DNA of 64,000 nucleotides from contig NC_013947.1 of assembly GCF_000024545.1 (NCBI RefSeq), positions 6,386,001 through 6,450,000 on the forward strand, written 5' to 3'. Origin of the DNA: Stackebrandtia nassauensis DSM 44728. GTDB lineage: Bacteria; Actinomycetota; Actinomycetes; Mycobacteriales; Micromonosporaceae. Numbering within the stretch: position 1 is the first letter of the stretch; each line of letters opens with the position of its first letter. Shown here piece by piece: positions 53,398 through 57,800 of the stretch. The position numbers and the translations under genes are program-made. The notes below the pieces were generated by a model. The model made no database searches. It was not told the origin of the DNA and was given only the letters and a program-made list of their open reading frames with translations.

Positions 53398-54612
53398 ATC
53401 GATACCACCGCGACCGCGACCCCCGCTCGTCCGCCGCTGCGCCGCCGCCGGGCCGGACGGCTGCTGACGGGTGTCGCCAAGGGCGTCGCTGAGCATCTGC
53501 GCATCCGGCCGATCTACGTGCGGCTGGCTTTCGTGGTGCTGTCGACGCCGTGGTTCGACAGCATCGGCGTGCTGTTGTACGTCGCGCTGTGGGCGGTGCT
53601 GCCCAGTGAGAAGAGCGAGCATCCGTGGCGGGATCGGCACCAGTGGCCGATCTTCGCGGTGCTGGGGCTGGGGTTGCTCATCTTCGCGATGACGACGAAC
53701 CTGACCTCCAGCGGGATGCTGTTCGGCTGGGTGGCCGCGACGGTGGCGCTGGGCGCCGGGTTCATCTGGCACCAGATCAAGCCGGACCCCGCGATGGTGA
53801 AACCCGCGGTGTCGCCCAAGGGGAAGCGGGACGCGATCCTGCGGTTGGGCGGCGGCGGGTTGTTGGTCGCCACCGGCGTGATCGGGACGATGGTGGTGCT
53901 GCTGGGGCTGGACGAGCGCAACGCCGACAGCATCATCAACAGCGTCCTGTTCACGGTGATCGCGTTGGCCGGTATGGCGTTGGTGTTCGGGCCGCTGGCC
54001 TGGCGCACCATGACCCAGCTGCGCAGTGAGCGCGAGGCGCGGGTACGGGAGGCCGAGCGGGCCGACATCGCCGCGATGGTGCACGACCAGGTGCTGCACA
54101 CGCTGGCGCTGATCCAGCGTCGCGCCGGGGACAGCCGCGAGGTGGTGCGGCTGGCGCGCGGGCAGGAACGGGCGCTGCGCAACTGGCTGTACAAGCCGGG
54201 CGCCGACGCCGAGGAGAAGCTACAGGCCGCGCTGGAGGCGGTGTCGGCGGAGGTGGAGGACTCCTTCGCCATCAGCGTGGACGCGGTGGTCGTGGGCGAC
54301 TGCGACATGGACCCGCACTCGGCGGCGCTGGTGGCCGCAGCCCGGGAGGCGATGGTCAACGCCGCCAAACACGCCGGAGTCGACAGCATCTCGCTGTACG
54401 CCGAGGTGGAGCCGGACCTGTTGAGCGTGTTCATCCGCGACCGTGGCGCGGGTTTCGATCCGGACGACGTGGACGCCGACCGGCACGGCGTCCGTGGTTC
54501 GATCATGGACAGGATGCTGCGGCACGGCGGCAAGGCCGAGGTGCGCAGTACCGTCGGCGAAGGCACCGAGGTGCGGTTGCACATGCCACGCGGCCAGGAG
54601 GACAAACGATGA
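53398..54612 (+). CDS. PspC-domain sensor histidine kinase (apparent AUC start)
   Basis: The PspC domain (RRAGRLLTGVAKGVAEHL, then RPIYVRLAFVVLS) is in frame from the stop at 53332 onward, but this stretch contains no ATG, GTG or TTG before the domain. The only plausible initiator is ATC at 53398, 7 bp after AGAGGTG. A GTG at 53518 would cut the domain in half. The 404-residue product then has four to five membrane helices, a HisKA_3-type segment with VHDQVLHTLAL and a HATPase with EAMVNAAKHAG and DRGAGFD. The response regulator overlaps its end (ATGA). A frame error in the first 100 bases is the alternative. Confidence 0.82.
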   Translation: MDTTATATPARPPLRRRRAGRLLTGVAKGVAEHLRIRPIYVRLAFVVLSTPWFDSIGVLLYVALWAVLPSEKSEHPWRDRHQWPIFAVLGLGLLIFAMTTNLTSSGMLFGWVAATVALGAGFIWHQIKPDPAMVKPAVSPKGKRDAILRLGGGGLLVATGVIGTMVVLLGLDERNADSIINSVLFTVIALAGMALVFGPLAWRTMTQLRSEREARVREAERADIAAMVHDQVLHTLALIQRRAGDSREVVRLARGQERALRNWLYKPGADAEEKLQAALEAVSAEVEDSFAISVDAVVVGDCDMDPHSAALVAAAREAMVNAAKHAGVDSISLYAEVEPDLLSVFIRDRGAGFDPDDVDADRHGVRGSIMDRMLRHGGKAEVRSTVGEGTEVRLHMPRGQEDKR

Positions 54613-55262
54613 ACGACACGGACAAACGCCTGCGGGTGTTCCTCGTCGACGACCACGCGATGTTCCGCGCCGGGGTGCGCTCGGAGCTGGGTGAGGCCGT
54701 GGAGGTCGCCGGGGAGGCGGGGACGGTCGCCGAGGCGATCACCGGCATCGAGAAGCAGCTGCCCGATGTGGTGCTTTTGGACGTTCACATGCCCGATGGT
54801 GGCGGAAGAGCCGTGCTGGAACGGGTTCGGGCGTCGCGTCCGGACGTCAAGTTCCTGGCACTGTCCGTTTCGGACGCCGCCGAGGACGTGATCGGACTGA
54901 TCCGCGCCGGGGCCCGCGGCTATGTCACCAAGACGATCGCGGCGTCCGAACTGGTCGCCGCCATCCGCCGGGTCGCCGAGGGGGACGCGGTGTTCTCGCC
55001 GCGGCTGGCGGGGTTCGTGCTGGACGCGTTCGCGTCGAAGTCGCAGGCTCCGGCCAGCGACCCCGAGCTGGACCAGCTGACCAACCGGGAGCGGGAAGTG
55101 TTGCGACTGTTGGCCCGCGGCTACGCGTACAAGGAGATAGCGCGCGAACTCTACATTTCGATCAAGACGGTCGAGACACATGTGTCCAATGTGCTCAGAA
55201 AACTACAAATGTCCAATAGATATGAGCTTTCCCGGTGGGCTGTCGACCGACGAATTGTCTGA
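54609..55262 (+). CDS. NarL/LuxR-type response regulator
   Basis: A 217-residue protein with a receiver domain (VFLVDDHAMFRAG, phosphoacceptor Asp in VVLLDVHMPDGGG at about residue 57, Lys in GYVTKTI) and a LuxR-type HTH (LTNREREVLRLLARGYAYKEIARELYIS, then KTVETHVSNVLRKL). It overlaps the kinase gene by 4 bp and is its cognate partner. Likely targets include the divergent PspC genes and perhaps the surface protein gene at 55420. The last 60 bp are notably less GC-rich than the rest. Confidence 0.93.
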   Translation: MNDTDKRLRVFLVDDHAMFRAGVRSELGEAVEVAGEAGTVAEAITGIEKQLPDVVLLDVHMPDGGGRAVLERVRASRPDVKFLALSVSDAAEDVIGLIRAGARGYVTKTIAASELVAAIRRVAEGDAVFSPRLAGFVLDAFASKSQAPASDPELDQLTNREREVLRLLARGYAYKEIARELYISIKTVETHVSNVLRKLQMSNRYELSRWAVDRRIV

Positions 55263-55419
55263 TATGGCAGATTTTAGGTTGCGATAATACCTCCTTTTCG
55301 GTCATTTCGGTCATCCAAAGGGTTTGGCCCCTAACGCAACCCGTTTCCATCCGCTAACGTGTGTCACTCGGAAGTACTTTCCCCCAACCGAAACAGTTCC
55401 CCCGGGAGGGACACAGAAT

Positions 55420-56502
55420 ATGAAGAAAACCTGGATGCGGGCGGGCGTTGCCCTGACGGCCGCCGCAGCCCTCGGCGTCGGACTGGCGGGCACCGCCCAC
55501 GCCGACGACGAGAAAGAGCCCGTCAAGGCCACTCCCACCACCGAAAGTGGCTGGAAGGTCAATGGCGGCGACGGTAGTTCGGTCGGCCAGATCAGCGCCA
55601 GCCGTATCTACCTGACCACCGCCGACGGCACCAAGTCCCCGGTGTACTGCATCGACATCCACACCCGCCTCGACACGACCCACGAGTACGAGGAAGGCAG
55701 CTGGGAAGAGTCCGGCGTCGCCAACCTCCCGCTGGTGCAGTGGATCCTTCACAACAGCTACCCGAACGTCGCCCCCGCTGACCTCGCCGAGGCGGCTGGA
55801 GCCGACGTCGCCGGACTGGACGAGAAGACCCTCGAACAGGCCGCGTACACCGCGACCCAGACCGCGATCTGGAACAAGACCGACGGCTTCAAGCTCGACG
55901 CCGCGGACTCCACCGCTGAGGGTGCCGAGATCGACGCTCTGGTGACCGCTATCGACAAGTACCTGGTCGAGAGCGCCGAGGAAATGCCCGAGCCCACCAA
56001 GGAGTTCACCCTTGACGGTCCGGACGCCTGGGACGCCTCCGAGAAGTCCGACGCCTTCAAGCTGACCGCTCCCGGCGGTACCGCGAAGGTCAAGGCCGAA
56101 GGCGCCAAGATCGTCGACGAGAACGACAAGGAACTCTCCGAGGTCAAGTCCGGTCAGGAGTTCTACCTGATCCCGGATGACGGTGCCGAGAAGATCACGC
56201 TGACCGCCACCTCCGAGTACTCCACCCCGTCCGGTTCGGTCTTCCTGACCACCGGTCAGCCCGTCGAGGCCGCCAAGGAGCTGAAGACCGACAAGTCGCA
56301 GCGCCTGATCCTGGCCAAGGCCCTTCCGGGTGAGACCGGCGCCGAGTGGGAGTTCGAGCTCGACGACAGCGGAACCCTGCCGGTCACCGGTATGTCGCTG
56401 ACCAACTCGCTGCTGGCCGGTGCCGGTCTGCTGCTGGTCGGTGCGCTGGCCGTCGTCGTGATGCGCCGCCGTCGCGTTGCCTCCTCCTGGGGCGACGCGT
56501 AA
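55420..56502 (+). CDS. LPxTG-anchored thioester-domain surface protein
   Basis: The ATG at 55420 follows GGGAGGG. Features: signal peptide (cleaved near AHA at about residue 28); a thioester domain with C77 in SPVYCIDIH and Q147 in YTATQTAIW, the Cys-Gln pair that forms the internal thioester of TED/TQXA adhesins; an acidic beta-rich stalk; then the sortase signal LPVTG (about 320-324), a membrane helix and RRRR. It would covalently capture a target on surfaces outside the cell. The length (360) indicates one thioester domain. Confidence 0.9.
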   Translation: MKKTWMRAGVALTAAAALGVGLAGTAHADDEKEPVKATPTTESGWKVNGGDGSSVGQISASRIYLTTADGTKSPVYCIDIHTRLDTTHEYEEGSWEESGVANLPLVQWILHNSYPNVAPADLAEAAGADVAGLDEKTLEQAAYTATQTAIWNKTDGFKLDAADSTAEGAEIDALVTAIDKYLVESAEEMPEPTKEFTLDGPDAWDASEKSDAFKLTAPGGTAKVKAEGAKIVDENDKELSEVKSGQEFYLIPDDGAEKITLTATSEYSTPSGSVFLTTGQPVEAAKELKTDKSQRLILAKALPGETGAEWEFELDDSGTLPVTGMSLTNSLLAGAGLLLVGALAVVVMRRRRVASSWGDA

Positions 56503-56530
56503 GCACCACTGAGTTAGACGCAGTACTTCT

Positions 56531-56565
56531 GGGGCGGTTCCCGTGATGCGGGAACCGCCCCTTCG
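56531..56565 (+). terminator. Terminator of the surface protein gene
   Basis: A perfect 13-bp GC-rich stem (56531-56543 with 56549-56561) with a 5-nt loop, followed by TTCG. Confidence 0.72.
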
Positions 56566-56604
56566 ATGTTCGCGAACCGCCCATCCTGTGGCATACTTGC
56601 CGAC

Positions 56605-56670
56605 GTGCACAGCGACACGCGATTTTATGGCTACTACGGCACCGGTTGTCCGGGCCGTAGGTCGTGCTGA
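56605..56670 (+). CDS. Phe/Tyr-rich leader peptide of the chorismate mutase attenuator
   Basis: A GTG-initiated 21-residue peptide contains Phe-Tyr-Gly-Tyr-Tyr at codons 7-11, using the rare TTT and TAT codons in this GC-rich genome. It precedes two mutually exclusive hairpins and a chorismate mutase gene, whose pathway makes Phe and Tyr. A possible promoter (TTCGCG 56569-56574, 17 bp, CATACT 56592-56597) would start transcription at the GTG, i.e. a leaderless leader. No ribosome-binding site is visible, consistent with that. Confidence 0.8.
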   Translation: MHSDTRFYGYYGTGCPGRRSC

Positions 56671-56717
56671 GCTGTAAACAGACCTACCGCCCCGGGCATC
56701 GAGCCCGGGGTGTTTTT
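56651..56717 (+). promoter_or_regulatory. Transcription attenuator upstream of chorismate mutase
   Basis: The terminator is CCCCGGGC (56690-56697), a 5-nt loop, GCCCGGGG (56703-56710) and TGTTTTT. The competing hairpin pairs 56651-56663 (contains GTAGGTC) with 56681-56694 (GACCTAC plus GCCCG), consuming the left arm of the terminator. A ribosome stalled at the Tyr codons (56626-56637) leaves 56651 onward free, so the antiterminator forms. A ribosome reaching the stop at 56670 covers it, so the terminator forms. Confidence 0.82.
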
Positions 56718-56779
56718 CATGAGACCGGGTTCGTTTCGAGGCGACAGACACTCTTCACACGAAACAGGGAGCACCCGAC

Positions 56780-57043
56780 ATGAACGCCGACACCGCCACC
56801 ACCGAGCCCGACCTCAACACGCTTCGCGAGCGCATCAACGGCATCGATGACGAGATCATCCGGCTGTGGAAGGAACGATCGCAGGTGTCCAAGGAGGTGG
56901 GCCGGATCCGGATGGCCGCGGGAGGCACTCGGCTTGTGCTGTCCCGCGAGCGCCAGATCTGCGAACGCTTCCGCGAGGCGCTCGGCGAGGACGGGACCCA
57001 GCTGGCGCTGTTGCTGCTGCGAGCCGGTCGCGGCCCCTTGTAG
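56780..57043 (+). CDS. Chorismate mutase, AroQ type
   Basis: An 87-residue helical protein with the AroQ pattern LNTLRERINGIDDEIIRLWKERSQVSKEVGRIR (catalytic Arg and Lys in the first helix) and the second-helix segment LSRERQICERFREAL. It converts chorismate to prephenate for Phe/Tyr synthesis. The length is normal for stand-alone actinobacterial enzymes, which often need DAHP synthase for full activity. Expression appears controlled by the attenuator directly upstream. Confidence 0.9.
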   Translation: MNADTATTEPDLNTLRERINGIDDEIIRLWKERSQVSKEVGRIRMAAGGTRLVLSRERQICERFREALGEDGTQLALLLLRAGRGPL

Positions 57044-57251
57044 ACACCGCTCCTCGGCACCTCGCATCCGGCGAAAACCAGTGGAACGGCGCCGCCGTGC
57101 GCCGTTAGCATGCGATGGAACTTGTCGTCTTCAGCGAGGACGTGCCGTTGTACACCCTGTGAGACCTCCCAAGAACTGATTCTCAGCGCGCCGCGCTTCC
57201 GCGCCGCGCTCATCTTTGTTGCGGACTTCTCACCGAGACGGGTGTATCTCC

Positions 57252-57800
57252 ATGCTCGAAAACTGGGTGGTCATGCCCACCCGGTTGCCGCTGATTCGCC
57301 GTCGCTGCCACGTGTGCGCCTCCGCGCGCTTTGGGCCGAGCGGCAAATTCCGCGTCAATGCCAACCAGAAACTCATCGACGTGTGGCTCCTCGCGCTGTG
57401 CACCGGCTGCGGGGAGACCACGAAGCTCACGGTCCTGGAGCGGACGAGAGTGCGCGCCATTCCGTCCGGACTGCTGGACCGGCTGCTTCACGACGACCCC
57501 GACCTGATCGCCGAACTGCTCCAGGATCCGGCGATCCAACGCCGCAATCGCGTCTGTCTCGACTGGGAGGACGCGTGGCGTCTCGACACCGGTGAGCCGG
57601 ACCGTCAAGGCGCCGAGGTCATCGAAGTCGCCGTCCATTTCGCGGCCCGGATCCCGGTCCGGGTGGAGCGACTGATCGCCGAGGGCCTGGGGCTGTCCCG
57701 GGCCGAGGTGGAACGACTGACCGTGACGGGAAACCTCGTCTCGGCGGTGAAGCCGAGCGGCAAGCTCAGCGAGGACTTCACCTTCACGGTCAAACGCTGA
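57252..57800 (+). CDS. DUF1062 domain protein
   Basis: The ATG at 57252 fits the family start (LENWVVMPTRLPLIRRRCHVC). The 182-residue protein has a probable zinc site from CHVC and CTGC (about residues 19-22 and 54-57) and a long helical middle. Its C-terminal segment resembles an S4-type RNA-binding turn (VRVERLIAEGLGLSRAEVERLTVTG). The DUF1062 function is unknown; the two features suggest RNA contact. The 208-bp gap before it holds no other gene that I can support. Confidence 0.85.
   Translation: MLENWVVMPTRLPLIRRRCHVCASARFGPSGKFRVNANQKLIDVWLLALCTGCGETTKLTVLERTRVRAIPSGLLDRLLHDDPDLIAELLQDPAIQRRNRVCLDWEDAWRLDTGEPDRQGAEVIEVAVHFAARIPVRVERLIAEGLGLSRAEVERLTVTGNLVSAVKPSGKLSEDFTFTVKR

Follow-up and report, generated by a model that had tools for sequence, protein, structure and literature searches.

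The chorismate mutase gene aroQ of Stackebrandtia nassauensis is preceded by a short reading frame rich in Phe and Tyr codons and by a hairpin with a T run. Do these elements form a switch tying the gene to the supply of the two amino acids? The window, i.e. the whole stretch of DNA analysed, is 64,000 nucleotides long, and belongs to a genome made of one contig of 6,841,557 bases. As predicted from the sequence, the locus is very probably a ribosome-mediated transcription attenuator sensing Phe/Tyr scarcity. Its features are listed in Table 1. The GTG-started, putatively leaderless peptide with the run F-Y-G-Y-Y announced by the original prediction is present, and is separated by 7 nt from a CATACT box; the frame reads GTG CAC AGC GAC ACG CGA TTT TAT GGC TAC TAC GGC ... 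TGC TGA. A weak TTCGCG motif (56569-56574) is found 17 nt upstream of CATACT. The predicted switch upstream of aroQ spans 113 bases, and the gene starts 62 nt past the T run, with AGGGAG (56766-56771) as a possible Shine-Dalgarno. Further upstream are located genes for a histidine kinase-like ATPase and a LuxR-type response regulator (53518-55262), and a gene for a thioester-domain surface protein featuring a wall-anchor motif at the C-terminus (55408-56499). The hairpin found 3' of the latter probably keeps its transcript apart from the leader.

Table 1. Features of the aroQ locus, in window coordinates.
Feature	Position	Strand	Basis
GC-rich hairpin, 3' of upstream surface-protein gene	56531..56561	+	by eye; no T run, so unscored by terminator scan
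-10 box CATACT	56592..56597	+	sequence reading
Leader peptide, predicted leaderless, GTG start, 21 codons + TGA: VHSDTRFYGYYGTGCPGRRSC	56605..56670	+	
Regulatory codons TTT TAT GGC TAC TAC (F-Y-G-Y-Y)	56623..56637	+	
Protector (1:2) hairpin	56609..56675	+	fold, pair counts, RNAalifold
Antiterminator 5' side	56648..56663 (56648-56654 + 56657-56663)	+	
Antiterminator 3' side	56681..56697 (56681-56687 + 56691-56697)	+	
Intrinsic terminator, stem 56688-56712 then T5	56688..56717	+	terminator scan, RNAalifold
aroQ, chorismate mutase, 87 aa	56780..57043	+	PF01817, NF005894, TIGR01808, Rv0948c structures

Compared with 200 dinucleotide shuffles, the leader RNA is more stable by 4.9 sd, and no shuffle equals it; it may adopt three competing helices. 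In the protector, region 2 is bound by the sequence around the last Tyr codon; this hairpin overlaps the regulatory codons, with the last Tyr codon in its apical stem (56634-56660). In the antiterminator, region 2 is paired to both region 3 and the 5' arm of the terminator. It had been drawn as 56651-56663 paired to 56681-56694; the stem exists, but this extent is too short, as the helix runs from 56648-56663 to 56681-56697 and totals 14 bp. Read by eye, it consists of an outer half (56648-56654:56691-56697, 7 bp, one G-U) and an inner half (56657-56663:56681-56687, 7 bp). The inner stem as sole antiterminator was rejected, because only the outer 7 bp, and not the inner ones, overlap with the stem of the terminator. 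The overlapping terminator with its five Ts is found as proposed. It shares with the antiterminator the outer arm 56691-56697, located in its own 5' arm, and through this common arm the two structures are mutually exclusive. Scanning 56400-57300 detected this single terminator, with 10 pairs followed by TTTTT; since shuffles of the same 901 bases give 0.6 +- 0.7 terminator-like sites, the count alone is no proof. Runs of at least four F/Y in five residues were found in none of 2475 windows from seven neighbouring coding frames.

Conservation is the strongest reason to discount chance. Sixty-one genomes (own, same genus, family and order) were searched, and 59 had an AroQ match. One AroQ locus per genome was read upstream, and second AroQ-like copies present in four genomes were left out. 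An aromatic leader was accepted in 56 of the 59 genomes: 54 derive from the collected set, and two (G006, G058) were recognized by eye. Twelve of the 54 were also chosen by eye, having escaped either the peptide filter or the pattern used for the -10 box, and have less regular -10 boxes. No leader was accepted in G046, G056 and G041, the latter having only a weak AroQ match. In a second, named collection all 80 loci, top-ranked among 492 confirmed relatives, have the leader. We take these to be Micromonosporaceae and Stackebrandtia, with one locus classed just as actinobacterium; several come from genomes of the 61-genome set. Of the 77 non-redundant family leaders, 73 have exactly CATACT as -10 box, 76 have their start codon 6-7 nt from the box, and 74 start with GTG; TTG is found at -35 in 55 of 76. 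No Shine-Dalgarno-like motif was found upstream of the leader start in any of the 77. This geometry is that of the actinobacterial leaderless type, with the predicted transcription start at or next to the 5' end of the frame. Many relatives lack a continuous T run at the terminator.

Co-variation in relatives, suggested originally as a check, was analysed by a swap test, in which the duplex energy of each species' own partners is compared with that of partners exchanged between species in 4000 permutations. Four sets were used: 77 family leaders, the same thinned at 70% identity (38) and at 60% (19), and 19 leaders from the order outside this family; thinned sets were included because permutations leave some relatedness in. 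For the antiterminator z was -10.7, -6.6, -4.0 and -6.5, respectively, with 0/4000 permutations as extreme in each set. The terminator, taken as positive control, gave -17.6, -13.6, -9.0 and -8.5, and the protector -4.4, -3.8, -2.6 (19/4000) and -6.7. Twelve negative controls (reversed regions, promoter) ranged from -1.9 to +0.6; the most extreme value came from reversed region 2 in the set of 77, and was reached in 95/4000. In an alignment of 57 sequences, 86.2% of antiterminator cells are paired, vs 21-50% (at most 49.5%) when the partners are slid by 1-3 columns. Double changes affect 29 cells, vs 10.4 in shuffles and at most 17 in slid versions; the pairs with any double change are six, a number given also by some slid versions (6 to 8). 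Protector pairing reaches 95.8% of cells in the apical helix, and just 63.0% in the lower one. Unaided, RNAalifold recovers the apical protector and the terminator. By these comparisons, each of the three helices has partners that co-vary from species to species.

Counting from the stop, F or Y is found at -15, -14, -13 and -12 in 66, 72, 56 and 73 of the 77 family leaders, encoded by TTT, TTC, TAT and TAC. Family leaders carry on average 4.1 F/Y in frame 0, vs 1.5 and 0.8 in the other frames, a figure inflated in frame 0 because aromatic residues partly guided leader selection. Hairpins kept without Phe/Tyr codons, a pattern that would speak against an attenuator, are not what relatives feature: all 134 collected leaders, some genomes counting twice, have at least two F/Y codons, and 100 have at least four. 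As selection was partly by aromatics, more weight goes to the fact that an accepted leader is missing from only 3 of 59 genomes. Trp is found in 1 of 96 non-redundant aroQ leaders. In the same 96 leaders Phe is encoded by TTT in 140 of 193 cases, vs 2 of 72 in seven coding frames from the neighbourhood of aroQ. A variant compatible with the attenuator, according to which Phe alone is sensed and Tyr codons serve RNA structure or spacing, is conceivable but doubtful: the last Tyr codon does sit in the protector stem, and the Corynebacterium glutamicum aroR leader responds to Phe and not to Tyr, as stated in the accessible part of the source (PMC11802643), but Tyr is frequent also at -15 to -13, in alternation with Phe.

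An attenuator sensing Phe and Tyr would work as follows, all of start site, translation, termination, read-through and sensed amino acid being predicted. Transcription would start at or next to the GTG, and the ribosome would initiate directly on the leaderless 5' end. When charged Phe- and Tyr-tRNA are ample, the ribosome would reach the stop codon at 56668 and cover region 2, letting the terminator form. When either is scarce, the ribosome would stall within TTT TAT GGC TAC TAC and cover region 1; region 2 could then pair with region 3 before the 3' arm of the terminator exists, resulting in read-through into aroQ. With no ribosome on the RNA, the protector hairpin would hold region 2, and termination would be favoured.

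Stalling was simulated by blocking the RNA to 13 nt beyond the middle of the stalled codon, with the terminator 3' arm absent. The simulation behaves as originally proposed, as stalling at the best aromatic codon favours the antiterminator in 77 of 77 family leaders; the same holds for 16 of 19 leaders from other families (L040, L046 and L054 fail), though the picking of the codon flatters these results. In the window, a stall at any of codons 1-10 gives a simulated antiterminator probability of 0.84-0.87. The value falls to 0.62 for Tyr 11, 0.25 for codon 12 and 0.00 for codon 13, rises to 0.17-0.42 for codons 14-16, and is 0 from codon 17 onward. The productive stall window thus closes with the aromatic codons. 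In the codon-by-codon scan, where the second set was of 17 leaders (L040 and L046 excluded), the antiterminator is also released by stalls at non-aromatic codons ahead of the run, with values of about 0.7-0.8 in the family. With no ribosome and the 3' arm absent, the antiterminator has a probability of 0.34 in the window and of 0.27 on average in the family, being below 0.5 in 58 of 77 leaders. With the ribosome at the stop codon, the terminator probability averages 0.98 for the 77 family leaders and 0.89 for the 19 others; the zero antiterminator value obtained here results from the covering of region 2 by the model, not from the fold. Once complete, even the stalled RNA folds preferentially into the terminator, and the antiterminator has an average probability of 0.03 over the 77. 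The terminator being the equilibrium state of the full-length RNA, the switch must be kinetic.

The aroQ product matches PF01817 at 3.3e-10, scores above the cut-off for NF005894 and TIGR01808, and matches Rv0948c structures at 7.3e-22, as judged from sequence match and entry names. By homology it is a type II chorismate mutase of the Mycobacterium tuberculosis Rv0948c type. AroQ enzymes of this type are activated in complex with DAHP synthase, to which the titles of two papers also point. Hence the gene does encode a chorismate mutase, as supposed at first, but one which is probably not simply stand-alone.

A covariance model built from 57 sequences has been used to look for the element elsewhere. 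It has one strong match (94.5 bits) in the S. nassauensis genome, the next scoring 21.7, and further copies of the aroQ leader in this genome were rejected on these scores. In the class, matches at E <= 0.1 were found in 134 of 296 genomes, many of the weak ones corresponding to the terminator part alone. AroQ is located downstream of 26 of 27 strong loci, and type I DAHP synthase downstream of the remaining one (L164); 23 of the 27 come from one genus, with genomes of 5.8-11 Mb. The next 20 weaker matches are located before AroQ (6), DAHP synthase (7) or neither (7), the last seven reading mostly as plain terminators or coding DNA, and rejected. With this model the element is found ahead of aroQ also outside the family of the window, within the same class. 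Type I DAHP synthase genes are preceded by an aromatic leader with a -10 box at 20 of 30 loci, these being the best-scoring 30 from 81 of 197 genomes with a match. In other families of the class, the leaderless leaders noticed upstream of type I DAHP synthase have runs such as F-W-R-F-Y-G-Y and W-S-F-W-Y (L201-L230; L183, L185-L187, L192, L196, L199). Trp is part of the aromatic run in 17 of the 20 DAHP synthase leaders. As Trp is found in most of these and Phe/Tyr before aroQ, codons tend to follow the products of the enzyme; the aroQ leaders L177 and L181, from large genomes, contain Trp and make an exception. No aromatic leader with a -10 box was found at 15 class II DAHP synthase loci in 15 genomes, nor upstream of prephenate dehydratase in the S. 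nassauensis genome. At L244 two aromatic ORFs were found, both without a -10 box. All this is consistent, as a tentative proposal, with a class-wide aromatic leader regulon, in which similar leaderless attenuators with product-matched codons would precede aroQ or type I DAHP synthase; in the clade of the window, in which class II DAHP synthase was found to have no leader of this sort, attenuation of the small AroQ partner would also set the amount of regulated-complex DAHP synthase. If so, in this clade tRNA charging would tune the entry of the pathway through a subunit, AroQ.

The same data bear on whether the leader may be a general sensor of translation stress, similar to the whiB7 leader, in which any stall in the early peptide gives read-through. 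The simulated release of the antiterminator by early non-aromatic stalls fits such a sensor. Aromatic codons kept at fixed places, the linkage to a gene making the Phe/Tyr precursor, and the addition of Trp to the run in 17 of 20 leaders before DAHP synthase all argue against it, and make it very improbable. The C-terminal part of the peptide (GSGSPAAVGRA) is alike across much of the family, as expected for a conserved functional micropeptide followed by an ordinary terminator, with no switch, but the same stretch is the RNA of two alternative helices, antiterminator partners co-vary, and the frame of this part differs in Stackebrandtia, L007, L023, L032, L035, L084 and L126, so that a micropeptide is scarcely credible. 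In Stackebrandtia, L007, L023 and L032 the C-terminus is read in another frame (e.g. GCPGRRSC vs the usual GSPAAVGRA), and the stop codon is still found directly behind region 2. A kept stop position is needed by an attenuator and is unexplained by a working peptide, and thus favours the attenuator. In L035, L084 and L126 a frame shift, located in the aromatic run or past it, cuts the run short and brings the peptide to a premature stop within region 2, leaving the RNA elements intact; these are either natural variants or sequencing errors.

Leader-peptide attenuation is a classical type of control. The E. coli pheL-pheA and pheST leaders carry Phe codons and act by attenuation; pheA has a chorismate mutase domain. 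These leaders have a leadered start, and a bifunctional target enzyme. The aroQ leader is similar to them in Phe codons and predicted attenuation, and matched no Rfam family here. The aroR attenuator of C. glutamicum reportedly has a leaderless transcript (Neshat and colleagues, in 2014), and mycobacterial polycysteine leaders are said to have been described by Canestrari in 2020. From the accessible portions of the sources, aroR is the closest known case, likened by description and not by sequence: the leader is located upstream of aroF, contains F-Y-F, and responds to Phe alone (PMC4046766, PMC11802643). Both are actinobacterial, involve the aromatic pathway and encode an F/Y-bearing peptide, but aroR controls DAHP synthase, whereas the leader described here precedes chorismate mutase. 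Leaderless attenuators are known, as far as the available text of each report goes, in Streptomyces lividans (trpL, ilvL and leuL; none of the eight leaders described there is for Phe or Tyr; PMC8079986) and at C. diphtheriae ilvB (PMC5784534). Likewise, cysteine-rich leaderless small ORFs of mycobacteria have been named attenuator candidates (PMC4633059), and a branched-chain amino acid leader attenuator at ilvB1 is supported by a recent study (PMC13236596). The S. lividans, C. diphtheriae and polycysteine leaders share the design of a leaderless short ORF with many end-product codons before a biosynthetic gene, and differ in amino acids and genes. A 2005 actinobacterial survey reports, in its accessible part, that conserved RNA structures were not seen before Phe/Tyr operons (PMC1262725).

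Rfam release 15 gave no match at gathering score in the whole window, and eight weak sub-threshold ones in 56560-56800; a known RNA family (T-box, riboswitch, Phe leader) was rejected on this ground. A known leader-peptide family was rejected as well, as NCBIfam gave no match for eight peptides, and Pfam two chance-level, sub-cut-off matches (E 0.2 and 0.099) for seven. No description of an aroQ leader in actinobacteria was found in the literature searched, which leaves out most subscription papers. That the aroQ leader represents a known type of control at a new place, and is unusually widespread, is well supported by the comparisons above. It would fill the Phe/Tyr gap with a conserved, testable switch at the Phe/Tyr branch point, in a group including antibiotic and amino-acid producers. 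Leaderless leader peptides apparently do the same job across many genera.

The second-best match of the model in the S. nassauensis genome (L145, G000:C1:2085783-2085917) features CATACT, 7 nt, GTG, the peptide MTFQLIISCGRAAAAT, and a GC hairpin with five Ts. The gene that follows reads by eye as a citramalate or isopropylmalate synthase, and L145 looks like another leaderless leader, a candidate Ile/Leu attenuator.
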